Below, piece by piece: positions 20,919-35,523 of a stretch of DNA of 35,787 bases (within the stretch, counting starts at the first letter, position 1; every line of letters begins with the position of its first letter). The stretch spans positions 1 to 35,787 of IMG/VR virus record IMGVR_UViG_3300017967_000085. One strand, 5' to 3'. The stretch is from a virus. The position numbers and the translations under genes are program-made. The notes under the pieces are model-generated. The model saw nothing but the letters and a program-made list of their open reading frames with translations. It was not told the origin of the DNA and did not search any database.

Positions 20919-22844
20919 ATGGCAACATTAAACAGCACAACAATTAATGATACAGGCTACTTAGCCCTGCCAGTAGGCACAACAGCGCAACGAGGAACAG
21001 AAGCAGCAGGAACACTTGTATATTTTACAAGCGTAGGAACAACCAGTTGGACAGTTCCGTCTAACGTTGACACCGTTGAAGTGTTAGTTGTTGGCGGAGG
21101 CGGCGGAGGCGGCTCTGACATGGGCGGCGGCGGAGGCGGCGGAGGCGTTGTCTACGAAGGTGCTTATAATGTAAACGCAGGAGAAACAATTACAGTTACC
21201 GTTGGAGGCGGCGGGTCTGGTGCTCCAGCAGGACAAGGACAAGTTAGAGGTTCAAACGGCGGAAATTCGGTATTTGGATCTATCACTGCTTATGGCGGAG
21301 GCGGTGGAGCATCGAGACACGATGGTTCAGGCGCACCAGCAGGTGATGGTGCAAGTGGCGGTGGAGCATCGGGTGGTAGAGGTAACGGAACTCCAGCAGC
21401 TAATGCATCCGGATACGGTGGCGGCAACAGAGGTCGTCAAATATACAATCAAGGTAACGATGGTGCGTGGGGAGATGGTTATTGGTACCCAGGCGGCGGT
21501 GGCGGCGCAGGCCAAATTGGATTTACTAATCCTGCACACGGAGGCAATGGCGTTCCAAATAATATTACTGGTAGTATTATCTACTGGGGCGGCGGCGGAG
21601 GTGGTTCCGGCTACTCAGGTCAAGGCGGCAATGGTGGCCTAGGTGGAGGCGGTGGCGGAGCCGTCAACACAACATACGGGGGTAATGGATATAACAATGG
21701 ATCCGGCGGTGGTGGCGGAGGCACTAGCACATGGGCACAAACACCAGGCGGTAACGCAGGTGCAAATACTGGCGGTGGCGGTGGCGGCGGTTCTCACTAC
21801 AACGCAGGAAACCAAGGTGGCACAGGTGGTTCTGGTATTGTTATTGTAAAATATAACACACAAGCAGGCGGCGTTGCACCTAATGCAGGTAGTATGCGTG
21901 TAAACACAGATACTGGAGCAGCAGAATTTTACAGTGCTACAGGAACATGGAATAGCATGGCTATTCCTTTTAAAATCAGAACTGTTATTACCCATCATTT
22001 TATGGCCGGCGGATATAAAAGTTCAAGTGCATGGAACAATGTAAACAGAACTACGCAAGCGACAGATACTACATTAAATTTAGGTGACGGTAGTATTACT
22101 AGATCTTTTAACTATCAAGGCGGAGCATGTGGTAAACACGTTGGATTTATCTTTGGTGCTGGTAACGGACATGCTGTAAGTTCTAACGTAATTGTTGCAT
22201 TTAACATGCGTACAGAACAAGCATACACAGGACATGTAAGTCAAGCAGGAAGCTATAACGGACTAAACAAAGGTACAGTTTTTTGGGAAACCTACTACAG
22301 TTGGACTACTGGAGGCGGAAGTTCTAACATTGACGAGTATAACCTAACTACAGAAACTCTAACACAAACTATTGGTGGTTGGAGTAGCACAAACCAATGG
22401 GGTATGAGCTCAGAGCATGAAGCATATTTTTATTGGGAGAATGATTCAAGAGTATGGACATACACCACAAGAACAGCAAGAAGTTCACCAAGCGGACAAC
22501 CTTGTAATCACCATCAGCAAAAAGCAGTCCAGTCTAAATTAAACTACGGTTGGGCAGGCAATGAAGGTTCTTGGAACGGTGGCTACAATCTACGTAGAAC
22601 AAACTTTGTAACTCACCAAGCCAATCAAGGTACTTATGGTAAACCGAGCGGCAACTCCGGAGAAGAAAACTTCTCAATGGGACAAGACTGGCAATATATG
22701 TTAGGCATGTACAATGGATTACAGAACAACATTTCGTGGAAATGGCAATATTATACTGAAACCGGATTCCAGGGAGGATCTACACTAGAACCTAAAGGAA
22801 AAGCTGGTTCAAGTTCTGGATTCTGCTGGTGGAGAGGAGACTAA
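20919..22844 (+). CDS. Polyglycine adhesin with kelch-like C-terminal domain
   Basis: This 641-residue protein is preceded by AAGGACAGTCA. It has four parts. Residues 1-27 are the N-terminal module MATLNSTTINDTGYLALP. Residues 30-60 read FTSVGTTSWTVPSNVDTVEVL, a known lead-in to phage glycine-rich domains. Residues 61-308 are dominated by runs of up to eight glycines, probably a polyglycine-helix sandwich as in gp38-type adhesins. Residues 325-352 are GSMRVNTDTGAAEFYSATGTW, and 353-641 are kelch-like blades (HFMAGGYKSSSAWNNVNR). The last part is homologous to the whole distal part of the next gene. The glycine codons GGC/GGA raise local GC sharply. It is a likely receptor-binding protein; the receptor is unknown. 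Confidence 0.8.
   Translation: MATLNSTTINDTGYLALPVGTTAQRGTEAAGTLVYFTSVGTTSWTVPSNVDTVEVLVVGGGGGGGSDMGGGGGGGGVVYEGAYNVNAGETITVTVGGGGSGAPAGQGQVRGSNGGNSVFGSITAYGGGGGASRHDGSGAPAGDGASGGGASGGRGNGTPAANASGYGGGNRGRQIYNQGNDGAWGDGYWYPGGGGGAGQIGFTNPAHGGNGVPNNITGSIIYWGGGGGGSGYSGQGGNGGLGGGGGGAVNTTYGGNGYNNGSGGGGGGTSTWAQTPGGNAGANTGGGGGGGSHYNAGNQGGTGGSGIVIVKYNTQAGGVAPNAGSMRVNTDTGAAEFYSATGTWNSMAIPFKIRTVITHHFMAGGYKSSSAWNNVNRTTQATDTTLNLGDGSITRSFNYQGGACGKHVGFIFGAGNGHAVSSNVIVAFNMRTEQAYTGHVSQAGSYNGLNKGTVFWETYYSWTTGGGSSNIDEYNLTTETLTQTIGGWSSTNQWGMSSEHEAYFYWENDSRVWTYTTRTARSSPSGQPCNHHQQKAVQSKLNYGWAGNEGSWNGGYNLRRTNFVTHQANQGTYGKPSGNSGEENFSMGQDWQYMLGMYNGLQNNISWKWQYYTETGFQGGSTLEPKGKAGSSSGFCWWRGD
21085..21840 (+). repeat. 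GGN-rich low-complexity tract encoding polyglycine
   Basis: Runs of GGC/GGA/GGT codons (for example around 21091-21146, 21588-21604, 21640-21661 and 21771-21790) encode glycine clusters separated by short variable segments such as YGGGGGAS or NTTYGGNGY. The variable segments are where loops of a polyglycine adhesin would lie. The GC content is far above that of the surrounding AT-rich sequence. Confidence 0.75.
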
Positions 22845-23885
22845 ATGGCAACCTTAAAAAATACTAATATAGATGATACTGGTCACCTTACGTTACCAGG
22901 ACAAGGAACCACAGTTCAAGGTAATATTAGATATAATAATGCTGAAAACAAAGTAGAGGAATATCAAGCACAAACAGCTGGCGGTAGATGGAGCAGTATG
23001 GCTGCTCCATATTTAACTAGACAAATTGTAACCACCGGTTATTTACATGGAGGATATGCATTTAGTGTTGTTTGGACAAACACCAATAGATCTACTTTTG
23101 CAACTGATACAACAGTAGATTTAACAGGAGCAAATCAAACACAAGAAAGAGGACACAACTACAAAGCAAGTGTTTGGAGTGCAACCACAAACTTTACTTT
23201 TGGCGGACAAGCTAATGCTCACTGTGCAGGTTCTAATGGAAATATCGCATTTAACATGGTAACAGAGCAAAGTTTTACTAGTGGATACAGCAGAACTATT
23301 CCTTGGACTACTAATAATAATGCTTGCATCCAGCAAGAACAGTGGAGAGGATGGACAGGCATGGGCGGAACATCAAACGTATATGAGTTTGATTTCCAAA
23401 CAGAAACATTAAATACCAGTGCAATAACATCTAATCCTAATTCAGGCGGATGGGGAACTAACCATGAAAGTCATGCTGTATGGATAGGGTCAGGCGAAGG
23501 TTATAGATTTGCATTTGCTACACGTACAAACATCAGTGGTAGAAGTTTACGTGTACAAGGTGACAAACATCAGCACACATTACAATTCAAACATTCCTAT
23601 CATATTGCCGGTCGAGAAGGAAACCCATCTTCTAACTGGAGGGAAACTAATATGTACAGTGACACAACCAGAGACGCTATCGGTAGCAAGCCAGCATATA
23701 GTGGCGAAGAAAATACAGTCACAGGGCAAGAATGGGCTTACGGTCTAGGATGGTATCAAGGTGGTCACGTAAATACAACTTATAAATTTACATATGCTAC
23801 TAGATCAGGGATAACTACTACATCAAGTACACAGCCTAAAGGAATGAATGGGCAAAGTTCCGCAACGATGTCGTGGAGAGGTTAG
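22845..23885 (+). CDS. Kelch-like adhesin, paralogue of the preceding C-terminal domain
   Basis: This 346-residue protein starts directly after the upstream stop codon (TAAATG, no gap). Residues 1-55 hold the N-terminal module MATLKNTNIDDTGHLTLP and GNIRYNNAENKVEEYQ. The rest has blade-like repeats with landmarks TTGYLHGGYAFSVVWTNTNR, NGNIAFNMVTEQSF and YSGEENTVTGQEWAYGLGWY. These align with FMAGGYKSSSAWNNVNR, NVIVAFNMRTEQAY and NSGEENFSMGQDWQYMLGMY of the preceding protein. It therefore looks like a duplicated receptor-binding domain without the polyglycine part. The kelch/propeller assignment is by repeat style only. No enzyme residues are visible. Confidence 0.78.
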   Translation: MATLKNTNIDDTGHLTLPGQGTTVQGNIRYNNAENKVEEYQAQTAGGRWSSMAAPYLTRQIVTTGYLHGGYAFSVVWTNTNRSTFATDTTVDLTGANQTQERGHNYKASVWSATTNFTFGGQANAHCAGSNGNIAFNMVTEQSFTSGYSRTIPWTTNNNACIQQEQWRGWTGMGGTSNVYEFDFQTETLNTSAITSNPNSGGWGTNHESHAVWIGSGEGYRFAFATRTNISGRSLRVQGDKHQHTLQFKHSYHIAGREGNPSSNWRETNMYSDTTRDAIGSKPAYSGEENTVTGQEWAYGLGWYQGGHVNTTYKFTYATRSGITTTSSTQPKGMNGQSSATMSWRG

Positions 23886-23889
23886 TGAG

Positions 23890-23913
23890 GGTAAATATAG
23901 TATATATATTACC
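23890..23913 (+). promoter_or_regulatory. Weak stem-loop with a late-promoter-like core between adhesins and the next genes
   Basis: GGTAA-ATATA-GTA-TATAT-A-TTACC can fold as two 5-bp stems with one bulged base and a 3-base loop. No T-tract follows, so it is not a standard terminator. The left arm contains GTAAATA, close to a T4-type late -10 element, 32 bases before the ATG at 23929. The ribosome site AGGAG follows at 23914-23918. Either reading is tentative. Confidence 0.35.
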
Positions 23914-23928
23914 AGGAGTTAATTATAA

Positions 23929-24786
23929 ATGAGTAAACAAGATAGACTAATCCAATATAGTTCAGATAGATTTGTAAGCGAACCAAAATCTGATATTTCT
24001 ATGCTGTCGGATGTTGATAAAGAAGTTTTGCACAAAGCAATGAACAAGGAATGGACTAATCCAAAATACAAATTACGTTATTTTGTAGGCGAAGCTCAAA
24101 TTACACCTTATGCTAAAATGCGTCAATGGCTTTTAGAAATAAAATCAAAAGAAGAATCTATTGAAAACTTAGAATATGAAATTGCAAAAGCACAGGTAGA
24201 ATACGATAGATTTGAAAGAATGAGAGACCAAGCCCATGACGATTTAGACAAACGTCTTGCTGAAATTGAAATGTGGAATTCTGATAGGATTATGTATACC
24301 ACAAAGCGTAGATTGCAAGATTGGTATTTAGAAAGACAACAATTAATTGATTTGCTGACAGAGTTTTTGGCAAGTGATCAAGCATATTTGCCTGACGGGT
24401 CTGGTAGAACATATATGGATATTCTTAATACAGAAGAAGAAGATTTATATGAAGCAGAATATTGGACAAACAGACTAGCAAAACAAGCAGCAACAGATAT
24501 GTTGTTTTACGGAAGAATTGGTTCTGGAAATATGGATGCTATTCTGCAAATGCCTCCGGAACAGCAAGCGGAAACACTATCTTTGACTGTAAACTATAGC
24601 ACTAAACTACAAGATTATCAAAATAGGTTGCAGTCAGAAGCAGAAGAAAATTTAAAACTAAATTATCAACAGGAAATGAAATCATTAACCACACCTGCAG
24701 ATGAAAATGATGTAGAAACACATTCCCTTGTTGATGATACTGAAAAAAAAGATGAGGGGTTAATAGACGATGTATATTCTACATGA
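23929..24786 (+). CDS. Unknown charged helical protein
   Basis: This is a 285-residue hydrophilic protein with a strong AGGAG ribosome site 10 bases upstream. Residues about 70-145 are a long, highly charged helical stretch (EESIENLEYEIAKAQVEYDR, then DDLDKRLAEIEMWNSD, then RRLQDWYLERQQLIDLLTEF), probably coiled coil. A second helical region spans about 205-250 and an acidic tail ends in DEGLIDDVYST. There are no membrane segments or catalytic motifs. It overlaps the next gene by 17 bases, so translation of the two is probably coupled. Its placement after the adhesins suggests a tail or assembly factor, but I do not recognise the family. Confidence 0.65.
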   Translation: MSKQDRLIQYSSDRFVSEPKSDISMLSDVDKEVLHKAMNKEWTNPKYKLRYFVGEAQITPYAKMRQWLLEIKSKEESIENLEYEIAKAQVEYDRFERMRDQAHDDLDKRLAEIEMWNSDRIMYTTKRRLQDWYLERQQLIDLLTEFLASDQAYLPDGSGRTYMDILNTEEEDLYEAEYWTNRLAKQAATDMLFYGRIGSGNMDAILQMPPEQQAETLSLTVNYSTKLQDYQNRLQSEAEENLKLNYQQEMKSLTTPADENDVETHSLVDDTEKKDEGLIDDVYST

Positions 24787-25354
24787 AACAGTTGCGAGCA
24801 ATGATCCGAGATTAGATCCTCGTATAAAAACAAAAACTAATGTTTGGCACTACACTATAAGCGAATTAAATCCTAACGAAGGTATTATTACTTCGTGGCT
24901 TAACCCTGTAGAAGTTACAGAAGAAGAACTAGTAGCATCAAAATTTACAAATGTAATGGATAATATGGTACCAATATTAGTAAACACTGCTAATAGAGTA
25001 GATATGGTAGAGCCTACAAGTTTTGGTGATCCTACATATGAAAAAATCATGTATACACTGACAGCAACTGATAAATCAAATCTTGTTTCTTTGATGAAAA
25101 AAATGATGAAATTACATGCTGAAAATCATATAGAAGATAACGGTATTAAACAGAAACTTTTATTGGGCATAGAACCTCTTTCAAACGTTGAAGAAACACA
25201 AATGTACATGGCCACGTACTTCGAATGGGAGTGTGCATTTACACATGATAAAAATAAAACACCTATGTTTGATGTAGCATGGGTATGGGGTCCTGAAGAA
25301 AGAGGAAACATGGAAGAAACTCCTCTACAACAGGTGGAAAATCCACCTAGCTAA
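24770..25354 (+). CDS. Unknown protein, translationally coupled to the helical protein
   Basis: This 194-residue protein starts inside the end of the upstream gene, with GAGGGG about 10 bases before its ATG. It has a mixed alpha/beta appearance: a beta N-terminal third (NVWHYTISELNPNEGIITSWL), a helical middle (ATDKSNLVSLMKKMMKLHAENH) and a Trp/Tyr-rich end (YMATYFEWECAFTHDKNKT, then VAWVWGPEE). No signal peptide or known motif is seen. The 17-base overlap suggests that the two products work together, for example as a complex. It is the last gene before the enzyme cluster. Function unknown. Confidence 0.65.
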   Translation: MYILHETVASNDPRLDPRIKTKTNVWHYTISELNPNEGIITSWLNPVEVTEEELVASKFTNVMDNMVPILVNTANRVDMVEPTSFGDPTYEKIMYTLTATDKSNLVSLMKKMMKLHAENHIEDNGIKQKLLLGIEPLSNVEETQMYMATYFEWECAFTHDKNKTPMFDVAWVWGPEERGNMEETPLQQVENPPS

Positions 25355-25363
25355 ACACTTCAC

Positions 25364-25416
25364 ATTTCCTCTGGGTTAGGTACGCTTACAATAAGTATGT
25401 AGTACTCAGAGGAAAT
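25364..25416 (+). promoter_or_regulatory. Perfect 10-bp inverted repeat that can mask the ribosome site of the 25420 gene
   Basis: ATTTCCTCTG at 25364-25373 is the exact reverse complement of CAGAGGAAAT at 25407-25416. The right arm contains the Shine-Dalgarno AGAGGAAA, four bases before the ATG at 25420. The 33-base loop holds a smaller CTTA-CAA-TAAG hairpin. There is no T-tract, so this is more likely a translation-control stem or an operator than a terminator. It sits exactly at the border between the virion-type genes and the enzyme cluster. Confidence 0.55.
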
Positions 25417-25419
25417 ATT

Positions 25420-27090
25420 ATGCGCAAAATTTTTAGTGTTCCGTTAAATCCTAAACTATCACCAGAACAATACACAGAATTTTACAATTTTTTATTAGAA
25501 TATAAAGATTATATATATGATGTGTATTTTACATCAAGAATAGCACCTTTTATGCAAGATGCTATGGGAGATTTATTTGTTTATAGTGAAGATTATGATC
25601 ATGCAATCGAGCAAGCACTAATTATACAGCAAAACATAGGCATACCTATTAGTGCAACATTTAATAATATTCAAGTTGCACCTACGCAAAAAAATCTTGA
25701 TACTTTCATTAAAAATTTTAAATCTTTGTATGATGCAGGTGTACATGTTGCTACTATTCCACATACACATTGGATGGCTACAGGACAAATTAAACGTGCA
25801 TTTCCAGAACTAAAAGTAAAAAATACAATTTTACGAGATGTCAGAATCGCATCTGAAATTGTAAATCTTGCAAAATATGGGTTTGATTATATAAATCTCG
25901 ACCGTGATTTAATGCGTGACAGAGATACATTAATCCGGTTGAAACAAGCAAAAGACTGGATAAAGGAAAATTTAAATAAAGACATACATTATAGTTTACT
26001 AGCAAATGAAGGATGTATGGGAAATTGTCCTATGATGGTAGAGCACTTTCATTTTAATAATACCAGGTCAGGAGATACCCCTCAATATTTTAACGATTCT
26101 ATAAGTAGAGTAAGTTGTCCTAAATGGGACGTAGATGATCCAAGTGTGCATCTAAAGACAGCAAACATTCCTCCATGGAAGGAAGATTGGGACGAATTTA
26201 TAGACGATCTAGGAATAAATGTGTTTAAAATGCATGGTCGCGAATCGCCAGGACGATTATGGGAAACTATGGATATAATTAAACGCTATGCAAATAATGA
26301 AGATATATTATTTGATAATTTTAGCAGTTATTTACAAGACAATAATTTAATTGAAAAACCTATTAACGCCTGGCGTAAGAAAATTAAAAATTGTAAATTT
26401 GATTGCTGGGAATGTCATTTTTGTGATGACATATATAAAATTAAATCAGAAATTGATCATACTCCGTTAGTTAAGCATGTAGCACAAGCAATACTAGATA
26501 GCGGAGTTCCGACAGTAAAAAATAGTATTCCTGGATTAACAAGTTCTAGAATAAAAACGTTGCTAAATCTAATTGCTAAAGAACGCAAAATTTATATGGA
26601 AGTTGGCACTGCACTAGGGGCCACATTTTGCGGAGCTCTTGTGGGCAATAAAGCCAAAGGAATAGCAATCGACACTTGGGAGGAAAATATACAACCTTTT
26701 AGGACTGATGTTGGAGAACTACCTGAAAACAATTTAGAATTATTTAAGGAGAATGTAAAGACACATTTAGATAACGAAGTTGAGATTATAAATCAAGATT
26801 TATTTAAAGTGGATTTAACAAAATATTCTAATCAAATAGATATGTGGTTTTATGATGGGCCTCATAGCGAATCTGCTACAGCAAAAGCAGTTGAGTATTA
26901 TTCCTCTTGCTTTTCTGAAGAAACTGTGTTAATATTTGATGATGCTAACTGGATGGGCGTTGTTACAGGCGCAAAAAAAGGAATCGAAAAAATAGGAGCA
27001 AAAGTAGCGTATGAAAAATTAATCATGGGGGAGCAAGAAGATCCAAATGGTTGGTGGAACGGTTTATACGTTATGGTGGTAAGAAAATGA
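25420..27090 (+). CDS. U32-like iron-sulfur protein fused to a SAM-dependent methyltransferase
   Basis: This 556-residue protein has two parts. Residues 1-345 look like a TIM-barrel protein of the peptidase-U32 superfamily. The key segment is LANEGCMGNCPMMVEHFHF at 194-212, close to the U32 NEGC...CP...H motif. Cys199, Cys203, Cys233 and the cluster Cys325/329/332/335 could bind an iron-sulfur centre. Characterised U32 members (UbiU/UbiV, TrhP, RlhA) are hydroxylation factors rather than proteases. Residues about 350-556 form a class I methyltransferase of the Methyltransf_24 type: YMEVGTALGATFCGAL (motif I, 392-406), GIAIDTW, then DMWFYDGPHSE (474-484) and VLIFDDANW. It is the first gene of the overlapped enzyme run and overlaps the next by 4 bases (ATGA). 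The fold of the N-terminal part is less certain than the C-terminal one, and the substrate is unknown. Confidence 0.72.
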   Translation: MRKIFSVPLNPKLSPEQYTEFYNFLLEYKDYIYDVYFTSRIAPFMQDAMGDLFVYSEDYDHAIEQALIIQQNIGIPISATFNNIQVAPTQKNLDTFIKNFKSLYDAGVHVATIPHTHWMATGQIKRAFPELKVKNTILRDVRIASEIVNLAKYGFDYINLDRDLMRDRDTLIRLKQAKDWIKENLNKDIHYSLLANEGCMGNCPMMVEHFHFNNTRSGDTPQYFNDSISRVSCPKWDVDDPSVHLKTANIPPWKEDWDEFIDDLGINVFKMHGRESPGRLWETMDIIKRYANNEDILFDNFSSYLQDNNLIEKPINAWRKKIKNCKFDCWECHFCDDIYKIKSEIDHTPLVKHVAQAILDSGVPTVKNSIPGLTSSRIKTLLNLIAKERKIYMEVGTALGATFCGALVGNKAKGIAIDTWEENIQPFRTDVGELPENNLELFKENVKTHLDNEVEIINQDLFKVDLTKYSNQIDMWFYDGPHSESATAKAVEYYSSCFSEETVLIFDDANWMGVVTGAKKGIEKIGAKVAYEKLIMGEQEDPNGWWNGLYVMVVRK

Positions 27091-27692
27091 TAGAAAATGT
27101 TTTTGCAATTCCTATATATACAACAAAAGTTAAAGATTTTGTAGGAATTTCTGCAGAAGTTAATAATGCTATAGAACATAGCAAATTTGCCAACGAATGG
27201 CAGCCTGACAACGACACTGCAAAAACAACATTTATACCTCAACAAGAAACAAATGTACTACGTAAATTTTCTATGGAAAAGCTGGCAAATGAAATATTTG
27301 ACAATGCAGAAAATTATTTAAATGAAACTAAACAACCTATAAAACAAAATACAGTAAGTATAGAACAAAGTTGGATTAATATTTTTGAAGAATCGCAACA
27401 TATTGGTACACACGAACACGGTTATCAACCTAACACGTTGAGTGGTGTTTATTATCATTCTGCTCCTAGTGGATGCGGAAACATTATTTTTAAAAATCAA
27501 AATCCTTTTGTAATAAGTTTTCCGCATCAGTCTCCATTATATTCTAATCTTCATACTGTAGAGGCAACTGAAGGTTTACTAATTTTATTTCCAAGTTGGT
27601 TGTTGCATAAAGTAGAACCAAATAGATCAGGAAAACAAAGGTGTTCGCTATCCTTTAATATAGCGTTTGATTATATATTTTACGGTGATTAA
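27087..27692 (+). CDS. Putative 2OG-Fe(II) oxygenase (2OG-FeII_Oxy_5 type), copy 1
   Basis: I place the start at 27087 (MIENVFAIPIY), where ATGA overlaps the upstream stop; this gives 201 residues and the usual N-terminus of the family. A longer frame from 27051 would run 36 bases further into the methyltransferase gene. The iron-site region is HIGTHEHGYQPNTLSGVYYH (105-124), with His109/His111 as candidate ligands. The distal His is His174 in FPSWLLHKVEPN, and Arg185 in KQRCSLSFNIAF is the likely 2-oxoglutarate anchor. Such enzymes hydroxylate proteins or small molecules using O2, Fe(II) and 2-oxoglutarate. The substrate is unknown. It is followed two bases later by the halogenase. Confidence 0.8.
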   Translation: MIENVFAIPIYTTKVKDFVGISAEVNNAIEHSKFANEWQPDNDTAKTTFIPQQETNVLRKFSMEKLANEIFDNAENYLNETKQPIKQNTVSIEQSWINIFEESQHIGTHEHGYQPNTLSGVYYHSAPSGCGNIIFKNQNPFVISFPHQSPLYSNLHTVEATEGLLILFPSWLLHKVEPNRSGKQRCSLSFNIAFDYIFYGD

Positions 27693-27694
27693 AA

Positions 27695-29218
27695 ATGAAA
27701 CAAATAAAAAAAATTATAATATTTGGTGGCGGAACATCAGGTTGGTTAGCAGCAGCTCATCTTAGTAATACACTACAGAATCCTGTTGAAATAATGCTAA
27801 TAGAAGATGCAAGCGCAGGGCCTATTGGAGTCGGTGAAGGTACACAACCATTAACTGCTAAATTTTTACACGAATGCGGTCTAATGCCAAAAGATTGGAT
27901 GAAACCTAGTAAGGCGGCACTTAAACTTGGAGTAGAATTATCTGGATGGAATGATGATCCATATTTTGTAGATAATGATGATGCTAACAATTATGTTCCT
28001 GCACAAGATAAGTTGATTAATAATTATTTTATTACTAAACCTTACAAAGAATATGCAGACTGGCATCCTGCCTACAGAATTGCAAAAAATAACACATCAC
28101 CTAAATTAACAGAGTTTACAGATGTAAACTTTGGTAATGGTTTGGATAGTTTTGGAGCAGTGCATTTTAGTGCGTATGATATTATTGACACAATTAAAAG
28201 GATAATATCAAATAGAATAACTTATGTAGACACAAAAATTGTAAATGCAGAAACCGACTCAACGGGAATAACAAAATTAATAGATGAAGAAGGTAGATTT
28301 TACACAGCAGATTTGTATTTAGATTGTTCTGGGTTTAATAGTGTATTACTAGAAAAAACTTTAAAATCAGAATGGATCAGTTACACTGACAATGGCTGGC
28401 TGTTAAACGACAGCGCAGTTGCAATGCCAACACAATATAATAATCCAAAAGAAGAATGTCATCCTTATACTAAAGCAACAACTATGAATGCAGGCTGGAG
28501 ATGGACAATTCCTACCTATAATAGAATAGGTAATGGTTATGTATACAGTAGCAAATTTATTTCTAAAGAAGCAGCAGAACAAGAGTTACGAGAAGCATTA
28601 AATGATTTTGAAACTCCTGTTAAACATTTAAAAATGAAGTGCGGAACACACAAAGCAATCGCATTAAAGAATGTATGCGGTGTAGGGTTAGCAGGAGGAT
28701 TTGTAGAGCCGTTGGAAGCAACAGGAATAACATTTACTACAGCAGTAATTAAGTCTGTGTCAGATTTGCTAAACATGTATCAAAACAATTGGAATGACGA
28801 AGTTTTAGATCATCTTAATCAAGGATGGTATGAAATGAGTATAGAAATTTTAACATTTATTTGGGCACACTATTATTTTAGTTCTAGAAATGATACTCCT
28901 TATTGGCAAGAAATTAGAAAACAAAAAATTGAAGACTTGCCTACTAATGCTCAATATATGCTGTCTAATTATTATCCGGATTTGAAAAACTTCTTATATT
29001 TTAGCCCACAAAGTATGTTTACCTCGCAACAATGGTTTAGTATGTTACACGCCGGCGGTGCGTATAAAAATATTATAAAACAATTAGATCCTAAAGAAAA
29101 ACAGTACTACGAATATTTTATACAAGTACAAAATAAAAGAGTCGAATTAGCATTGGAAACATTTCCAAATCATTATGAGTTTCTGAAAGAATGGTATGAC
29201 GGATGGACAACAAATTAG
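27695..29218 (+). CDS. prnA: Flavin-dependent tryptophan-halogenase-type enzyme
   Basis: The 507-residue length is right for the family (about 500-540). Visible motifs: FAD-binding GGGTSGW (11-17), VGEGTQP (46-52), WRWTIP (268 region; the W-x-W-x-I-P signature is Trp268 to Pro273), and FVEPLEATGI (337-345). By comparison with PrnA as I remember it, Lys73 (SKAALK) matches the catalytic Lys79, and Glu341 matches Glu346. All hallmark positions are intact, so it is probably active. The family uses FADH2, O2 and halide to halogenate indoles, mostly tryptophan or peptide/pyrrole substrates; which one cannot be read here. PrnA-like genes are known in marine myoviruses. It overlaps the next oxygenase by 16 bases. 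A flavin reductase is not present in this window and would have to come from the host or elsewhere in the genome. Confidence 0.88.
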   Translation: MKQIKKIIIFGGGTSGWLAAAHLSNTLQNPVEIMLIEDASAGPIGVGEGTQPLTAKFLHECGLMPKDWMKPSKAALKLGVELSGWNDDPYFVDNDDANNYVPAQDKLINNYFITKPYKEYADWHPAYRIAKNNTSPKLTEFTDVNFGNGLDSFGAVHFSAYDIIDTIKRIISNRITYVDTKIVNAETDSTGITKLIDEEGRFYTADLYLDCSGFNSVLLEKTLKSEWISYTDNGWLLNDSAVAMPTQYNNPKEECHPYTKATTMNAGWRWTIPTYNRIGNGYVYSSKFISKEAAEQELREALNDFETPVKHLKMKCGTHKAIALKNVCGVGLAGGFVEPLEATGITFTTAVIKSVSDLLNMYQNNWNDEVLDHLNQGWYEMSIEILTFIWAHYYFSSRNDTPYWQEIRKQKIEDLPTNAQYMLSNYYPDLKNFLYFSPQSMFTSQQWFSMLHAGGAYKNIIKQLDPKEKQYYEYFIQVQNKRVELALETFPNHYEFLKEWYDGWTTN

Positions 29219-29784
29219 AAATATTTCACGCTGATCTTTTTATACATGATAATGTAGGTACAGATTATCAAGTTGCAGATTTAAAAGATCAAGTTTTATC
29301 TGCTAAAGAAAAAAATAGCGGTGTTATTCCTAATAGTAATGATAATTGCTGGCGAAGTGTGCATCAATACGATAGAATAGATTGGCTCTATAATGCTGTA
29401 AAAGAACTTACAAAGGCTGCTAGTGAATACTATTTTGAGACAGACAAATTTTTTAGTAACAATCTAATACAAAGAAAAATAGATATAAAACTTTGGACAA
29501 ATGTAAACGAGCCAGGCGGTGCTAATGTTTTGCACAACCATGAAAAGGATTCTTATGCAGCAGTTTACTATGTAGATGCAGAAGATACTGGATGTTTAAG
29601 TTTTCTTAATCCTGCAAACTTATTATCTAATTGTAATCCATTGTCTCCTATGACTAGGCAATTAGTATATCCGCCTGTAAACAATCAATTAATTTTGTGG
29701 CCGGCTTGGGTACCACATGAAGTAGAAATTAACAAATCAGATAAGCAAAGAATTAATCTTGCATTTAGTATAAGGGTATCATAA
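29203..29784 (+). CDS. Putative 2OG-Fe(II) oxygenase (2OG-FeII_Oxy_5 type), copy 2
   Basis: This 193-residue protein starts inside the end of the halogenase gene. Candidate iron ligands are His111/His113 in NVLHNHEKDSYAAVYYVDA and His172 in LILWPAWVPHEVEIN. Arg183 in KQRINLAFSI is the probable 2-oxoglutarate anchor. The order of motifs is the same as in the oxygenase at 27087, including the hydrophobic P-x-W-x-x-H signature, so the two are distant paralogues that flank the halogenase. The N-terminal halves differ, which suggests different substrates. No signal peptide. Its stop codon shares one base with the next start (TAATG), pointing to translational coupling. Confidence 0.78.
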   Translation: MDNKLEIFHADLFIHDNVGTDYQVADLKDQVLSAKEKNSGVIPNSNDNCWRSVHQYDRIDWLYNAVKELTKAASEYYFETDKFFSNNLIQRKIDIKLWTNVNEPGGANVLHNHEKDSYAAVYYVDAEDTGCLSFLNPANLLSNCNPLSPMTRQLVYPPVNNQLILWPAWVPHEVEINKSDKQRINLAFSIRVS

Positions 29785-30356
29785 TGAAAGTACATGATAA
29801 TATATTACAACCTAACATGTTTAAAAAATTGCAATCAACTATTTTAAATGCACAAATACCATATTATTTTGGAGAATCTACAGCTTTTAGAGAAAAAGAA
29901 AAACCAGATGTACTAGATTATAGTTGGAGTCATTTGGTATATGAAGAAGGACAGCAGTTAAGTAGTTTAAGTAGTTTTTTAGAAACAGTTTTACTTAGTG
30001 CGTTAGATAATGCTGAAATAGAGATACAAAATTTAATTCGTATTCGTATTGGGTTAATTACAGCAACTAAAGATCCTATTGTACACGACCCGCACATAGA
30101 TTACGAAACAGATCATCAAGTAGGTTTATTATATGTGCATGACAGTGACGGCGATACAATTATATATAAAAACACTTATGAAACAAATAGTTCTTATAAT
30201 AGTATTGACTTTATTAAAGATAAAAAATTAGAAGTTTTAGAACAAGTTAAACCAGTAGGAAATAGAATGGTATTTTTTAATGGTTTACAGTATCATTCTA
30301 GTACAACACCTATACACCATAATAAAAGGATTGCAATAAATTTTAACTATGTCTAA
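29784..30356 (+). CDS. Putative 2OG-Fe(II) oxygenase of a different subfamily (prolyl-hydroxylase-like)
   Basis: This 190-residue protein has a classical double-stranded beta-helix pattern: H-x-D in DPHIDYETDHQVGLLYVHD (His104, Asp106), the distal His in FFNGLQYHSS (His171), and Arg182 in NKRIAINFNY. GDTIIYKN is the usual strand between them. It belongs with P4H-like 2OG-Fe(II) oxygenases (PF13640 style) rather than with the two neighbours, so the cluster has two oxygenase subfamilies. P4H-like enzymes usually hydroxylate proline or related residues; the target here is unknown. The start shares its A with the upstream stop, and the next gene begins 8 bases before its end. Confidence 0.8.
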   Translation: MKVHDNILQPNMFKKLQSTILNAQIPYYFGESTAFREKEKPDVLDYSWSHLVYEEGQQLSSLSSFLETVLLSALDNAEIEIQNLIRIRIGLITATKDPIVHDPHIDYETDHQVGLLYVHDSDGDTIIYKNTYETNSSYNSIDFIKDKKLEVLEQVKPVGNRMVFFNGLQYHSSTTPIHHNKRIAINFNYV

Positions 30357-31083
30357 AGATAAAATACAATTTTTCTCCAAAGTTAAAGGATTAGCAGAAG
30401 CATTTCCTATTATACCTGCTAGGCAGTTTGATGCTAAATGGATGCAAAACTGTAAAGCAGATTATGTCAAAGTTAAAAATAGCTTGCAACCTAGTCATTT
30501 ACAGTTATGTCCCGGTATATTTGATATTTTTAAATATGGATATATGGTTCCTTTATGGCATGATACTGTTTTGAAAACTACAAGAGACAGAGAAGATTTT
30601 GATTGGGTTTTGCCTAGCAAAACACTAAGCACCATGAGAGAAGGCGAAGCAGTTGGGACACATCCATACGAAGTAACTAAGTGGTTACCTAAACGTCATT
30701 ATAGCAAACATGCTATTGTAAAATTTAATACACCTTGGAATGTTATTGCACCAAAAGGAATAAAATTCCTAGTGTTACCCATACCATATCCTGATACATT
30801 TGAATTTGAAAGTAATATAGGTATTTTAGATCCTGCTATTAGCACAGAATTAAATATCCAGGGATATCTTAATATTAGCGAAGGAGAACATATGATTAAG
30901 GCTGGTACTCCTTTGATGCATATTATACCATTATCAGAAAAGAGTTTTGATTTCGAATGCAGAGATATGAATGACAACGATGCAGAATGGTTAGAGAAAA
31001 GGGTTTACTTTAATATTTTTGGATTTAAATTAAATAAAGCAAAACTTAAAGATGCATACAATAATCATTTTTGGAGAAATTAA
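30349..31083 (+). CDS. Unknown protein, paralogue of the 31496 gene
   Basis: This 244-residue protein overlaps the upstream oxygenase by 8 bases. It shares with the 31496 protein, in the same order: PIIPA near the N-terminus, LCPGI (Cys54) followed by a GY/GW and W-x-D segment, K-F/I-x-x-PWxVxxPKG, P-x-PYPD, GILDP, LN-x-Q, and AGTPL-x-x-I. The layout resembles that of DUF6065-type proteins, which I recall only as a family of unknown function; the resemblance is by eye. No catalytic triad, nucleotide-binding loop or membrane segment is seen. Position inside the tailoring cluster suggests that it handles or recognises the substrate. That is inference. Confidence 0.7.
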   Translation: MSKDKIQFFSKVKGLAEAFPIIPARQFDAKWMQNCKADYVKVKNSLQPSHLQLCPGIFDIFKYGYMVPLWHDTVLKTTRDREDFDWVLPSKTLSTMREGEAVGTHPYEVTKWLPKRHYSKHAIVKFNTPWNVIAPKGIKFLVLPIPYPDTFEFESNIGILDPAISTELNIQGYLNISEGEHMIKAGTPLMHIIPLSEKSFDFECRDMNDNDAEWLEKRVYFNIFGFKLNKAKLKDAYNNHFWRN

Positions 31084-31506
31084 ATGATATACGAAACCTT
31101 TACACGTAATTTTGTAAGATATTCGCAGGAACTAAGAGACGACGGCGGCGATCCGTACAAAGTTATTAAAACAAAAAAAGACAGAGTAAAAGCACGGCAG
31201 ATACTAAACATGTATCTAAAAGATAGAGAAGTTTATTTAACTTATAAAACCGGCGATATTGTTACTTCTGTTGTTGCAACAAAAATACCGTCTAGTGAGC
31301 TACCACAACCGTTACCAGCAATTGAGCCAGTTGAAACTCACATAGGAGAACATATAGAGCTGCAAGAACATCATGTATCTTTTTACATTATGCCTGCATG
31401 TGAGCCTACACTAGTACACATTGACGATGTAGTAGAATTTGTTGTAACACCTGATAATATCGATAACCTTTTCGATTACTTAAAGTTTCATAAAGATGAA
31501 TTTTAA
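31084..31506 (+). CDS. Unknown 140-residue protein
   Basis: The ATG follows the upstream stop with no gap and has GGAG about 10 bases before it. The N-terminal third is basic (VIKTKKDRVKARQILNMYLK); the rest is acidic and beta-type (HIGEHIELQEHHVSFYIMPA, then IDDVVEFVVTPDN). Two His-rich points (ETHIGEHIELQEHH) might bind metal, but no family pattern supports this. It lies between the two paralogues of unknown function and overlaps the second by 11 bases, so it is clearly part of the same transcriptional run. I do not recognise it. Confidence 0.65.
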   Translation: MIYETFTRNFVRYSQELRDDGGDPYKVIKTKKDRVKARQILNMYLKDREVYLTYKTGDIVTSVVATKIPSSELPQPLPAIEPVETHIGEHIELQEHHVSFYIMPACEPTLVHIDDVVEFVVTPDNIDNLFDYLKFHKDEF

Positions 31507-32254
31507 AATATTTAAAAAACCAAAGTTAGAATTTGTTGCACTGTTACCGGAAGTAGCACAGATTATGCCTATTTTGCCTGCTAGTAAACACCAATGGCAA
31601 TGGGCTAAAGATGCATTAGAAAACTATAAAAAAGAAAAAGACAACAACAAAACAAATAGGTTTACACATGTATCAAGATGCCCTGGCATATTAGGAATAA
31701 CAAAGTCAGGATGGATACAACGTGCTTGGCAAGATATTGTAATAGAAACAAACGGCGACGGTAAAAGTTTTAAATGGAAAACACCTATAAACCAAGCAGT
31801 TACAGATAGTGATAATAATTGGAAATGGGATTATGTAAGCCATCACCCTGAAGAATTATTCGGTTTATACAATCCTGACAAAAACTGTTTGCAAACAATA
31901 ATAAAAATACAAAGTCCGTGGATGGTGTATATTCCTAAAGGTTACTATTTAATGAGTATGCCCTTGCCCTATCCTGACAGGCACGAGTGGACGGCAGCAA
32001 CAGGATTTTTAGACCCAGACTACGGTCCTAATTTTTTAAATGTACAAATGTTCTGGCATAATCTTAATGGACAAACAGTTATTCCAGCAGGCACTCCTTT
32101 GTGCCAATACATACTAGTTAAAAAACAATCAGTTGAAACAATTGTGAGAGAATGTAACAACAATGACATTGATAATTTAAGATTACGAGCAAGTGCTATA
32201 GATTGTAAATATCAAAGCAATTATACTATACTTAAAGATTTAAAATGGAAATAA
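31496..32254 (+). CDS. Unknown protein, paralogue of the 30349 gene
   Basis: This 252-residue protein matches the 30349 protein in its motif order: MPILPAS, RCPGI (Cys62), SGWIQRAWQD, IKIQSPWMVYIPKG, MPLPYPD, TGFLDP, LNVQMFW and PAGTPLCQYI. The first 20 residues and the region between the WQD and SPW motifs are diverged. The duplicated genes are separated by one 140-residue gene and all overlap or abut, so tandem duplication with insertion, or duplication of an older pair, is likely. Function unknown; the similarity to DUF6065-type proteins is tentative. Confidence 0.7.
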   Translation: MNFKIFKKPKLEFVALLPEVAQIMPILPASKHQWQWAKDALENYKKEKDNNKTNRFTHVSRCPGILGITKSGWIQRAWQDIVIETNGDGKSFKWKTPINQAVTDSDNNWKWDYVSHHPEELFGLYNPDKNCLQTIIKIQSPWMVYIPKGYYLMSMPLPYPDRHEWTAATGFLDPDYGPNFLNVQMFWHNLNGQTVIPAGTPLCQYILVKKQSVETIVRECNNNDIDNLRLRASAIDCKYQSNYTILKDLKWK

Positions 32255-32517
32255 GTACTTGTATGCAAGATTTTTACAGTTTGCTAGGAGTTAACCAAAA
32301 TTCTAGCTTAAAAGATATAAAAATTAAATTTAGAGAACTAGCAATGGTTTACCATCCTGATAGAGGCGGCAATCCTGACGAGTTTAAAAGACTAAAGACT
32401 GCATACGAATGGTTGGTCCAAAATCACAAACAGGAAAAAAACTATATATTTGATGCTTCATCGGATGCACTATTTAAAAAATTATTTGGGAATCCCAATC
32501 CACCGTTTAGGAGATAA
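32245..32517 (+). CDS. Small J-domain (DnaJ-like) protein
   Basis: This 90-residue protein is almost entirely a J-domain: DFYSLLGV at residues 9-16, the helix II region IKIKFRELAMVYHPDRGG with the HPD signature at 37-39, and FKRLKTAYEWLV as helix III. J-domains recruit and stimulate Hsp70 (DnaK). There is no G/F or zinc-finger region, so it is a minimal co-chaperone with a short tail. Two starts are possible: 32245, overlapping the upstream gene by 10 bases, or 32263 (MQDFYSLLG), which has GGAAATAAG upstream and matches the usual J-domain start. The second is at least as likely. It may aid folding of large fibres or redirect host DnaK; both are inference. Confidence 0.87.
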   Translation: MEISTCMQDFYSLLGVNQNSSLKDIKIKFRELAMVYHPDRGGNPDEFKRLKTAYEWLVQNHKQEKNYIFDASSDALFKKLFGNPNPPFRR

Positions 32518-32519
32518 TC

Positions 32520-32732
32520 ATGGCGGCTCATAAAGTAGAAATTTGTCAATATTTACACAAAGAAACACAAATACAAAATAAAGCTCACGAAAGAATTCTA
32601 ACATGGCAGATGAACCATAGATGGGTTAAACATCAATTATCACACGATAAAAGAGAATTGTTGTTTTGGTTTGATGAAGATTATGAAGAATTTAAACGTA
32701 CTTGGCAATATTATTACAAAGACATTTATTGA
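32520..32732 (+). CDS. Small unknown Trp/His-rich protein
   Basis: This 70-residue protein is preceded by TAGGAGATAATC, a good ribosome site, two bases after the J-domain gene. It is rich in aromatic and basic residues: LTWQMNHRWVKHQLSHDKRE then LLFWFDEDYEEFKRTWQYYY. It is predicted helical with no membrane segment. It is the last gene of the overlapped enzyme run, and its TGA stop overlaps a late-promoter-like sequence. I do not recognise it; co-location with the J-domain gene suggests a partner, without further support. Confidence 0.6.
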   Translation: MAAHKVEICQYLHKETQIQNKAHERILTWQMNHRWVKHQLSHDKRELLFWFDEDYEEFKRTWQYYYKDIY

Positions 32733-32738
32733 TAAATA
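32731..32738 (+). promoter_or_regulatory. Candidate T4-type late promoter (GATAAATA)
   Basis: GATAAATA differs from the T4 late consensus TATAAATA at the first base and contains the ATAAATA core. It overlaps the stop of the 70-residue gene and lies 22 bases before the ATG at 32761, with GAGGAA as ribosome site between. Its position, at the return from enzymes to virion-type genes, fits a late promoter. Confidence 0.5.
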
Positions 32739-32760: not shown

Positions 32761-33969
32761 ATGTCATCAAATCCAGTAGTTAACAATATAAGAATTATTC
32801 CTAGAGACAACGCTTTCCTAAATAGAAACACAGGCTCTAGTGGAGAAATCTATTTTAACAAAGAATTAAATTCTCTTAGACTATACAGTGGTCGACTTAC
32901 TGGTGGTTACGAGGTCCTTAGTGAAGCAAATTTATCAAAAATATTAGGCGATTTGCAAACGGCAGCAATTTCTTATACTGTTACTATGGGAGTCGACACT
33001 ATTGGTAGCGACCCAAACGGTAAATTTTATATAGACGGTGTAGAATCTCCAGATTTAACTTTTGTCAAAGGTTATACATATGTTTTTGATCAATCAGATT
33101 CATCAAACGCATCTTATAATAGTCTATCATGGCCAATTATGTTTGACACAGAATCTGGACATTACACAGACGGGGTTATATTTGTTTTAGATGAAATACC
33201 TGTTACTATGTCTTATTATGTAGAAAGATTTGCTTTTGCAAATACAAGAAAAGTTTACATAACAGTAAGAAGCAATGCACCAGAAGCGATAACTTACGGA
33301 AGCTCACAAGGCGGAAATATTACTGTAGGAGTACCTGGCAGCGGCAGCGGAGGTTCTAATAGTTCTAGCATAGAAGTTTCGGATACTGCACCTAGTAGTC
33401 CTAGTCAAGGCAATATATGGTTTAATAGCGACAACGGTAGACTATATGTTTATGTTACTGATACAGATAGTAGTCAATGGATACAGCCTAGTGTGCCTGT
33501 GCCTAGCACATTTAGTAATGTTGCTATCACAGACAGTACACAGTTTAGTGCAGAAGGTTCTGATACACTTAGATTTGAAGATGGTCCGGGTATTGAAATT
33601 TCTTCAGACCCTATATCAAAAACAATTAGAATTAGTGCTTTATCTACAGGAGGAGGCGGTGGCGGAGTATCTTACGATCAAAGTTTAAATACAACTGATA
33701 GTGTAACATTTAGCAGTGTTAGTGCAACCAATTTTACAAACACTGGTGTAGGCTTACCAGAATTAGAAAGTGCTAGTTCGATAACATTAACAGCACCAGA
33801 CGGTGTAATTGTTGCCGGTGGCCAACTAAGATTACCTAGTCACGATGATGCATCAAGGGATGCTCTTATTGCAGCTAATGGTGATATGATTTATAATACA
33901 GATGATAATAAAATACAAGCGTACATTAATGGAGCTTGGAGAAGAATAGACGATTCTGCAATTGTTTAA
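32761..33969 (+). CDS. Virion-type structural protein with a degenerate cupredoxin-like domain
   Basis: This 402-residue protein starts NNIRIIPRDNAFLNRNTGSS then EIYFNKELNSLRLYSG, an N-terminus I associate with marine myovirus structural proteins. Residues about 70-190 follow the layout of the cupredoxin-like domain in the first giant fibre (LTFVKGYTYVFDQSDSS; SWPIMFDTESG; NITV), but the ligand positions read Trp124, Gly180 and Gln183, with no Met. Residues 195-235 are a Ser/Gly linker followed by GNIWFNSDNGRLYVYV. The C-terminus has LRLPSHDDASRDALIAANGD then MIYNTDDNKIQAYINGAWRR, a fibre-end motif. It probably is a fibre or baseplate-associated protein. Confidence 0.78.
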   Translation: MSSNPVVNNIRIIPRDNAFLNRNTGSSGEIYFNKELNSLRLYSGRLTGGYEVLSEANLSKILGDLQTAAISYTVTMGVDTIGSDPNGKFYIDGVESPDLTFVKGYTYVFDQSDSSNASYNSLSWPIMFDTESGHYTDGVIFVLDEIPVTMSYYVERFAFANTRKVYITVRSNAPEAITYGSSQGGNITVGVPGSGSGGSNSSSIEVSDTAPSSPSQGNIWFNSDNGRLYVYVTDTDSSQWIQPSVPVPSTFSNVAITDSTQFSAEGSDTLRFEDGPGIEISSDPISKTIRISALSTGGGGGGVSYDQSLNTTDSVTFSSVSATNFTNTGVGLPELESASSITLTAPDGVIVAGGQLRLPSHDDASRDALIAANGDMIYNTDDNKIQAYINGAWRRIDDSAIV

Positions 33970-33978
33970 GGAAAACTT

Positions 33979-35523
33979 ATGACTGAAAAAGAATATGTAG
34001 TTGTAGTAAATGCAGGAGTAGATTTAGAAGCTTTTGATGCAGAGTTAGCAGCGTCAACTGGAGAAGGACCTATACCTAATCGTGCAGTTGACATTGCAAA
34101 TCCTCGAATAGGTTCAAAAAGGATGACTCATTGGATGCTTACAGACGCGGAAGCTAATACATTAATGTCTGATCCAAGAGTCTTAAGTGTAGAAATACCT
34201 GCAGATCAACGTACAGATATTTCTATAGGATTGCGAGCATTTCAAGGCGACGATTTTACAAAACCTAGTGGCTTAGATCCTAGTGTGGTTAATTGGGGAT
34301 TGCGCAGGTGTATAGAGAGTACAAATAATTACAGTAATAATAGTTCTGCAACAGGGCAGTACGAATATGCATTAGATGGAACAGGAGTTGACATTGTAAT
34401 ACAAGACAGCGGACTACAAGTTGATCATCCAGAATTTGCAGGCAGAGTGCAACAAATAGATTGGTATGCAGAAAGCGGATTACCAGGCACACAAAATGCT
34501 AATCATTATAGGGACTTAGACGGCCATGGAACGCATTGTGCAGGTATAGCAGCAGGTAAAACCTATGGCTGGGCAAAAAATGCTCATGTGTATAGTCAAA
34601 AATTAGCAGGGTTAGAAGGCTCTGGCGACAGTGGAACAGGAATTTCCATTACAGATGCATTTGATACTATTAGACTTTGGCATGCAGCAAAAACAAATGG
34701 CCGTCCTACTGTTGTTAATATGAGTTGGGGATATTCAAGCACTGTAAGTGGAAACCCTACAGGAGGAACTTACAGAGGTGTTCCGTGGGTATGGAATGTT
34801 GATTATAATAATGATACGTTTTTGTGGCAAGGCACAGGCATAGTGCCTGCTGTATTTGGACCTGCTAGAGTTTATCCAGCAAGAGTTGCATCTGTTGATG
34901 CTGAAATAGACGATATGGTTGCGGCAGGCATTCATGTTTTTATAGCAGCTGGAAATGATTTATACAAAGGGGACGATGTTGGAGGTTTAGATTATGACAA
35001 TAGTGTAATCTATGGCGGTACTACTTTGTATTACCATAGAGGAAGTAGTCCTCATTCAGACAATGCTATGTGTATTGGAAATATAGATTCTGCTGTACAA
35101 CTTGATGGTGGAATTTACAAAGATAAAACTGCAAATACAACTTCCAGAGGACCTAGGGTTGATATATTTGCTCCAGGAACAAATATAATTAGCACATTAA
35201 GTAATTCTTCTATATATTCTACCGGAGATTATCCTGATAACACTAGTTTTAATGTTGGTAATTTGAGCGGAACTAGTATGGCTTCGCCACAAGTAGCAGG
35301 TGTTTGCGCCCTTCATCTTCAAGTTAATCCTCAAATGACTCCTGCACAATTTAAAAGTAGGATCCAAAACGATAGTTACAATGTAATGTTTGAAACTGGT
35401 TTAGACAATGATTACAGTGTGTATCAATCTAGTTTAATGGGAGCTCCAAATAGAGTATTATATAGCAGATATGGAACACAACCTTTAGTACAAAAAAATA
35501 TAGTAACAAATGTAGGAACATAA
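33979..35523 (+). CDS. Subtilisin-like (S8) serine protease
   Basis: This 514-residue protein follows the structural gene by 9 bases, with AAGGAAAAC as ribosome site. The catalytic set is complete: Asp143 in VIQDSGLQVDHPEF, His183 in DGHGTHCAGIAAG, oxyanion Asn326 in FIAAGND, and Ser433 in LSGTSMASPQVAG. Residues 1-85 (EYVVVVNAGVDLEAFDAE to VLSVEIPADQR) resemble an inhibitor-type prodomain, which would be removed by self-cleavage. No signal peptide is seen, so it is not a secreted host-type subtilase; its neighbours are virion genes. It may sit on the virion and cut host surface proteins, or process phage structural proteins. This role is inferred. It differs from the usual T4 prohead protease family. 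Confidence 0.88.
   Translation: MTEKEYVVVVNAGVDLEAFDAELAASTGEGPIPNRAVDIANPRIGSKRMTHWMLTDAEANTLMSDPRVLSVEIPADQRTDISIGLRAFQGDDFTKPSGLDPSVVNWGLRRCIESTNNYSNNSSATGQYEYALDGTGVDIVIQDSGLQVDHPEFAGRVQQIDWYAESGLPGTQNANHYRDLDGHGTHCAGIAAGKTYGWAKNAHVYSQKLAGLEGSGDSGTGISITDAFDTIRLWHAAKTNGRPTVVNMSWGYSSTVSGNPTGGTYRGVPWVWNVDYNNDTFLWQGTGIVPAVFGPARVYPARVASVDAEIDDMVAAGIHVFIAAGNDLYKGDDVGGLDYDNSVIYGGTTLYYHRGSSPHSDNAMCIGNIDSAVQLDGGIYKDKTANTTSRGPRVDIFAPGTNIISTLSNSSIYSTGDYPDNTSFNVGNLSGTSMASPQVAGVCALHLQVNPQMTPAQFKSRIQNDSYNVMFETGLDNDYSVYQSSLMGAPNRVLYSRYGTQPLVQKNIVTNVGT

Follow-up and report, generated by a model that had tools for sequence, protein, structure and literature searches.

What is a set of genes for iron oxygenases, a halogenase and a methyltransferase doing among the tail-fiber genes of a marine phage? 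The question is raised by the virus record IMGVR_UViG_3300017967_000085, analyzed here over its whole length of 35,787 bases (the window). It belongs to a T4-like marine myovirus and includes genes for the baseplate wedge, tail fibers and an S8 protease. Ten genes, g1 to g10, run along its + strand from 25420 to 32732, between an adhesin block that ends at 25354 and a fiber gene that begins at 32761. Our analysis supports the view that they form one functional unit, with at least its first gene tied to the adhesin module, and we see about an even chance that this operon modifies the phage's own host-binding fibers posttranslationally.

The initial annotation had described ten open reading frames (ORFs) in this interval, embedded between fiber genes and overlapping or abutting one another, and all ten are present on the + strand with fiber genes on both flanks. 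From g1 to g10, the nine junctions measure −4 (ATGA), +2, −16, −1 (TAATG), −8, 0, −11, −10 and +2 nucleotides (nt), so that the ATGA and TAATG junctions were borne out and the largest overlap is 16 nt. Of the families it had named, the halogenase, the methyltransferase, the J-protein and two of the oxygenases (now placed in PF13759) are confirmed by Pfam scores.

It had also suggested looking for the same set and order in other phages, and held that enzymes scattered in related phages would speak against a single pathway. We annotated contigs encoding phrog_7084 (the family of g6 and g8), the halogenase or the U32-methyltransferase fusion of g1 (U32-MT) with models built for this analysis. The window order, U32-(oxygenase)-halogenase-oxygenase-(oxygenase)-phrog_7084-g7-phrog_7084-(J)-g10-fiber-S8, was found with some losses in more than 20 contigs, across which phrog_7084 identity ranges from 42 to 100%. 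The halogenase-oxygenase junction overlaps in relatives as well, for example by 13, 16 or 25 nt. The set, its order and its overlaps are therefore kept, although these genomes have 4 to 14 PF13759 oxygenases each, not all of them in the cluster, and some halogenases too lie in other places. Other arrangements exist: fiber-halogenase(s)-phrog_7084-oxygenases in cultured cyanophages, adhesin-U32-phrog_7084-oxygenases without a halogenase, and S74 fiber genes-U32-oxygenase-halogenase. In several cultured phages (Syn9/Syn10, S-RIM44, P-TIM40, S-CREM1, Sf-FP1 and Sf-FR1), phrog_7084 stands directly 3′ of the halogenase, after tail-fiber genes and before two to nine oxygenases. Among the types represented in these oxygenase runs are JmjC_2, Cupin_8, DUF6445 and PF13640, and protein hydroxylases are known from several of them. 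The locus of Syn10 that encodes the halogenase VirX1 and the gp41-gp54 region of Syn9 thus resemble the window in having halogenase(s), then phrog_7084 and an oxygenase run, after tail-fiber genes; they differ in having two halogenases and up to nine oxygenases, JmjC_2 and DUF6445 types among them, and the U32-MT fusion, the J-protein, g7 and g10 were not seen there.

These neighborhoods are tighter than expected by chance. When labels were permuted within loci, halogenase-oxygenase adjacency was expected in 24.3 ± 3.3 of 58 loci and observed in 46; the corresponding values were 3.3 ± 1.6 and 15 of 21 for halogenase-U32, and 21.2 ± 3.6 and 55 of 69 for phrog_7084-oxygenase. At a control locus, around UvsW in 80 contigs, we counted 0.10 such oxygenases per 10 kb; genes for the halogenase, phrog_7084 and U32 were all absent. 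The conserved order and overlaps, the recurring set of halogenase, oxygenase and phrog_7084, and a boundary element found in many relatives (see below) together support the earlier proposal that the ten genes act as one unit.

The tie to adhesins is clearest for g1. In the window, the upstream module (20919 to 25354, +), our candidate for the substrate or a partner of the operon, consists of a glycine-rich protein with an adhesin C terminus, the adhesin-like F1417 (phrog_1417), F1409 (phrog_1409) and G194. Of 78 U32-seeded loci, 68 have phrog_1409 within four genes upstream of the U32-MT gene; the phrog_1417 adhesin and G194 each occur there in 61. F1417-F1409-U32-MT is also found as a minimal form, with no other cluster gene, and where the U32-MT gene is inverted (loci L315, L317 and L318) it still adjoins adhesin genes. 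With or without a halogenase in the locus, at least g1 is thus tied to this module. The adhesins had been one of three substrates suggested from the sequence; the linkage favors them over the other two, a host metabolite or a host macromolecule, though the choice is still an inference.

The g1 gene (25420 to 27090, phrog_1458) joins a U32-fold domain (residues ~1 to 345) to a class I COMT-like O-methyltransferase domain (~362 to 556). No U32 sequence model (PF01136 in Pfam) matched g1, at E 0.1 in Pfam or 0.01 in NCBIfam, and when PDB sequences were searched with the U32 profile, nothing was returned for the N-terminal domain. The U32-like call, made by eye, is supported by predicted structure: a model built from 32 sequences (predicted local distance difference test [pLDDT] score, 86.9) matches the solved U32 protein 5d88 in its N-terminal part with Z 16.0 and a root mean square deviation (rmsd) of 3.3 over 222 residues. 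Seven cysteines in this domain are invariant (199, 203, 233, 325, 329, 332 and 335). The methyltransferase domain matches Methyltransf_24 with 36.6 bits; the C-terminal part of the model resembles the small-molecule O-methyltransferases SafC and COMT (Z 16.5 to 17.4) and also TrmR (5zw3; Z 16.1, rmsd 2.7, 162 residues). In Bacillus subtilis, the U32 protein TrhP makes ho5U34 and the O-methyltransferase TrmR makes mo5U34 of tRNA. The same two kinds of protein are fused into one chain in g1, which differs from that pair in belonging to another sequence family and in lying within a halogenase/oxygenase operon; a search of the window for tRNA genes found none.

We assign g3 (27695 to 29218) to the flavin-dependent tryptophan-halogenase family, and halogenating activity is predicted. 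It scores 293 bits against Trp_halogenase PF04820 (cutoff, 21), and the hallmark residues noted earlier (GxGxxG, the catalytic Lys, WxWxIP and the EPLE motif) are all present, as GGGTSG at 11, K77 (invariant in 13 proteins), GWRWTIP at 267 and EPLEAT at 338. VirX1 of Syn10 is a relative, only ~29% identical, and we know of no natural substrate for it. According to PMC8407142, VirX1 has been characterized structurally (PDB 6QGM) and biochemically, has an unusually open active site that accepts bulky substrates, and halogenates many small aromatics. Some close relatives of the window (loci L019 to L022) carry a second halogenase-family gene, on the opposite strand, past the S8 protease gene.

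Two of the oxygenases, g2 (27087 to 27692) and g4 (29203 to 29784), belong to PF13759/TIGR02466 (72.8 and 54.7 bits in Pfam). Their iron triad is HxH...H plus an Arg, with the His residues present in 100% of 151 proteins. Since HxH...H is invariant here in place of HxD/E...H, the chemistry may differ from that of ordinary 2-oxoglutarate (2OG) hydroxylases. The third, g5 (29784 to 30356), is a phrog_274-type 2OG-Fe(II) oxygenase with HxD...H...R; it falls below the Pfam cutoff, and in 100 relatives H104, H171 and R182 are present in 100% and D106 in 98%. Of the three 2OG-Fe(II) oxygenases originally called, g5 is thus upheld by its triad, and g2 and g4 by family match but not by a textbook 2OG triad. 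The remark that almost every enzyme in the cluster adds an oxygen, a halogen or a methyl group is fair, with the reservation that the PF13759 HxH proteins are not proven hydroxylases. Cyanophage phrog_274 proteins are labeled "DNA endonuclease V" or denV in GenBank, while they carry HxD...H...R and have no Pyr_excise match; examples of the family are the window gene at 29784 to 30356, L015:9695-10195, L008:11653-12240, L013:12017-12574 and L011:9362-9853. A true Pyr_excise protein is separately present in S-CREM1. Judged by these motifs, the label is a recurrent annotation error in these phages, and the product is an iron oxygenase.

The pair of unknown paralogues noted earlier, g6 (30349 to 31083) and g8 (31496 to 32254), proved to be just that: both are phrog_7084, and they are 32% identical. 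A structure modeled from 75 sequences (pLDDT 95.8) predicts a dUTPase fold, newly recognized for this family. All 50 of the matches listed by VIA-align are dUTPases (Z up to 9.5, ~130 residues, rmsd 2.7 to 3.6), and Foldseek also gives this fold. Among the conserved columns, dUTPase motifs 2 (PRSG) and 5 (Gly-rich) are absent, and only a motif 3-like G-I-L-D and a motif 4-like AGTPL are retained; C54, D72, K125, G158 and G186 are conserved. By profile comparison, phrog_7084 is also a distant relative, not recognized before, of bacterial DUF6065 (PF19541) from Alphaproteobacteria and Xanthomonadales. With members found on plasmids, the profile-profile comparison (hhalign) gave 93% probability and E 2.8e-7, and in the reverse direction a hidden Markov model of phage phrog_7084 found 54 ORFs in 83 bacterial loci at E < 1e-3; the PF19541 profile itself had no match in the window record. 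The remaining genes of the cluster are g7 (31084 to 31506), a 140-residue orphan whose neighbor in relatives is phrog_7084, the halogenase or one of the cluster oxygenases; g9 (32245 to 32517), a J-domain protein (PF00226 DnaJ, 53.4 bits); and g10 (32520 to 32732), a 70-residue orphan and the final gene of the unit.

Bacterial relatives offer a second view of these families. DUF6065 shares with phrog_7084 the profile match and a position that can follow surface-adhesin genes: of 74 bacterial loci, 15 have it at most 600 nt after a gene for an autotransporter or for two-partner secretion. The bacterial DUF6065 loci are unlike the phage cluster in that, within ~6 kb, no matching oxygenase was found and only one weak halogenase match (19.9 bits). 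Halogenase genes lie directly downstream of a TonB-receptor gene in all three loci scanned (Brevundimonas, Caulobacter and Xanthomonas), and one Caulobacter contig has two halogenases, a Cupin_8 and a DUF6445 gene in a row, the latter two types also occurring in the Syn10-type phage cluster. Here the partner is an outer-membrane barrel, and U32-MT and phrog_7084 were not seen. A Caulobacter sp. genome (G001, the genome of locus L250) has 16 Trp_halogenase matches, often in tandem and several by TonB-receptor genes. We take the bacterial loci as parallels in position, not as proof of a substrate.

From the gene set, the folds, the catalytic residues, the operon structure and the adhesin linkage, we infer that the fiber is the substrate, in what order the reactions proceed, and that phrog_7084 and the J-protein serve in presentation. 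In the scheme we propose, the U32 domain and the three iron enzymes would hydroxylate fiber side chains, the fused O-methyltransferase would cap the new hydroxyl, and the aromatic residues Trp or Tyr would be the targets of the halogenase. Holding or presenting the fiber subunits would fall to the phrog_7084 proteins, with their dUTPase fold, and to the J-protein.

Several observations weigh against fiber modification, and transcription is one of them. The T4-type late-promoter core ATAAATA is far rarer in the window than expected (2 copies, against 20.5), and the two sites, at 18645 and 32732, lie ~90 nt 5′ of the upstream fiber block and 29 nt 5′ of the downstream fiber gene (32761 to 33969, +). 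The latter site (32732 to 32738, +), which gives that gene a late promoter of its own, is kept in 27 of 27 orthologues. The same core precedes none of 47 U32 genes and none of 42 halogenase genes, which leaves the operon with no late promoter that belongs to it; the core is never found before the oxygenase genes we label OXY3 and OXY5b, and before OXY5a in only 3 of 47 cases. Many relatives have the operon set apart from the fiber genes upstream by a terminator-like hairpin 5′ of U32, which overlaps a sigma70-like promoter (TTTAC[AT]-17-TATAAT). The window has a hairpin at 25364 to 25416 (+, z −4.0), 5′ of g1, with a sequence unlike that of the relatives; no clear match to a sigma70-like promoter was found in this gap. 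Because of the ATAAATA pattern and this boundary before g1, we did not assume that the cluster is part of a late fiber transcript; the operon looks like a transcription unit of its own. The hairpin is retained despite complete sequence change, and one lies in the same gap in L018, L024, L029, L033 and L098; that of the window would hide the ribosome-binding site of g1.

Other points also count against fiber modification. Some halogenases lie far from fibers, by recombination genes in S-B64 and by psbD in S-MbCM6. The known targets of U32 enzymes are RNA and quinone precursors, and we know of none that acts on protein. The link between DUF6065 and autotransporters is nearly all within Rhizobiales. 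The presence of a halogenase changes only ~3 times on the U32 tree, and much of the synteny is therefore shared descent. Adhesins from loci with a halogenase are richer in Trp (3.16%, against 2.27% without one), but the enrichment is not specific, since other residues and neighboring proteins shift too; with so few independent changes, we set this comparison aside.

What else might the cluster do? It might tailor host metabolites or other small molecules during infection, for example in host protection, as proposed for phage prnA, the fiber neighborhood being merely a convenient site. Published readings lean this way, with antibiotic protection for prnA and 2OG/nitrogen or DNA repair roles for the oxygenases (PMC2984593, PMC3037559, PMC9964418). 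The halogenase family includes free-tryptophan enzymes, the many small aromatics that VirX1 halogenates (PMC8407142) fit as well, and so does the sigma70-like promoter of the operon in relatives. However, among the window ORFs examined we saw no nonribosomal peptide synthetase, polyketide synthase or other scaffold-building enzyme (short precursor ORFs were not searched systematically) and no export gene, and metabolite tailoring leaves unexplained both the linkage of U32-MT to the adhesin module and the surface-protein neighbors of the bacterial relatives; we regard it as unlikely. The host surface itself, whether a glycan, lipopolysaccharide or an outer-membrane protein, could instead be modified, for example to limit superinfection. 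The host-recognition neighborhood and the bacterial halogenases by TonB receptors would suit such a role, but a Pfam search of the cluster turned up no enzyme for glycans or lipids, and of all the readings we give this one the least credence.

If g1 were an RNA enzyme, a fused equivalent of TrhP and TrmR that tunes late-gene translation, its U32 fold, its invariant cysteines, which fit an Fe-S enzyme, and a C-terminal domain structurally close to TrmR would all be accounted for. Yet its best methyltransferase matches are small-molecule enzymes, though the margin over TrmR is small, its linkage is to adhesin genes in a window without tRNA genes, and the halogenase and oxygenases would be left unexplained; an RNA role strikes us as distinctly unlikely. 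We find it very unlikely that the locus is simply an accessory-gene hot spot, where unrelated genes collect downstream of variable fiber genes and owe their order to shared descent. The fiber-neck region is indeed generally rich in oxygenases, with 1.76 per 10 kb around gp13, and the PF13759 copies elsewhere and the few halogenase changes on the U32 tree agree with this. Against it, overlaps are kept at 42 to 60% protein identity, halogenase, phrog_7084 and oxygenase genes are again found together in phages of other arrangements, and the adhesin linkage survives inversion.

Downstream of the cluster, an S8 subtilisin-like protease gene (33979 to 35523) follows the fiber gene, as it does in most close relatives, and its product could process fibers. 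Upstream, the consecutive fiber proteins at 20028, 20919 and 22845 have a common MATL...-type N terminus, probably a shared attachment segment; the 20919 gene has a glycine-rich stretch with 53% GC.

The enzyme families and VirX1 are already known. Cyanophage prnA and 2OG-Fe(II) oxygenases, long listed as auxiliary metabolic genes of cyanomyovirus genomes, have been assigned gene by gene to host metabolism or DNA repair (PMC3037559, PMC2984593, PMC9964418), not as the fiber-linked operon described here, and those of S-SZBM1 were called scattered (PMC9146016). When the cyanophage S-TIM4 underwent experimental evolution, mutations fell in 20 genes, many of which encode fiber or baseplate proteins and one of which is annotated as 2OG (PMC6224464); this lends weak support to fiber modification. 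A search of the open-access literature, with the primary VirX1 and Syn9 transcriptome papers outside it, found nothing on a fiber-linked operon, a U32-methyltransferase fusion or a dUTPase-fold relative of DUF6065.

Halogenases and 2OG oxygenases are common yet unexplained in marine cyanophages, and the operon and its tie to adhesins provide a concrete candidate substrate. One can envision, though only tentatively, that viruses widely halogenate, hydroxylate and methylate their own receptor-binding proteins with the help of a repurposed phrog_7084/DUF6065 partner, and that bacterial counterparts act on autotransporter adhesins and TonB receptors. Fiber modification, if confirmed, would mean that host recognition by marine phages has a chemical layer as well, and it would suggest a role for DUF6065 and DUF6445.

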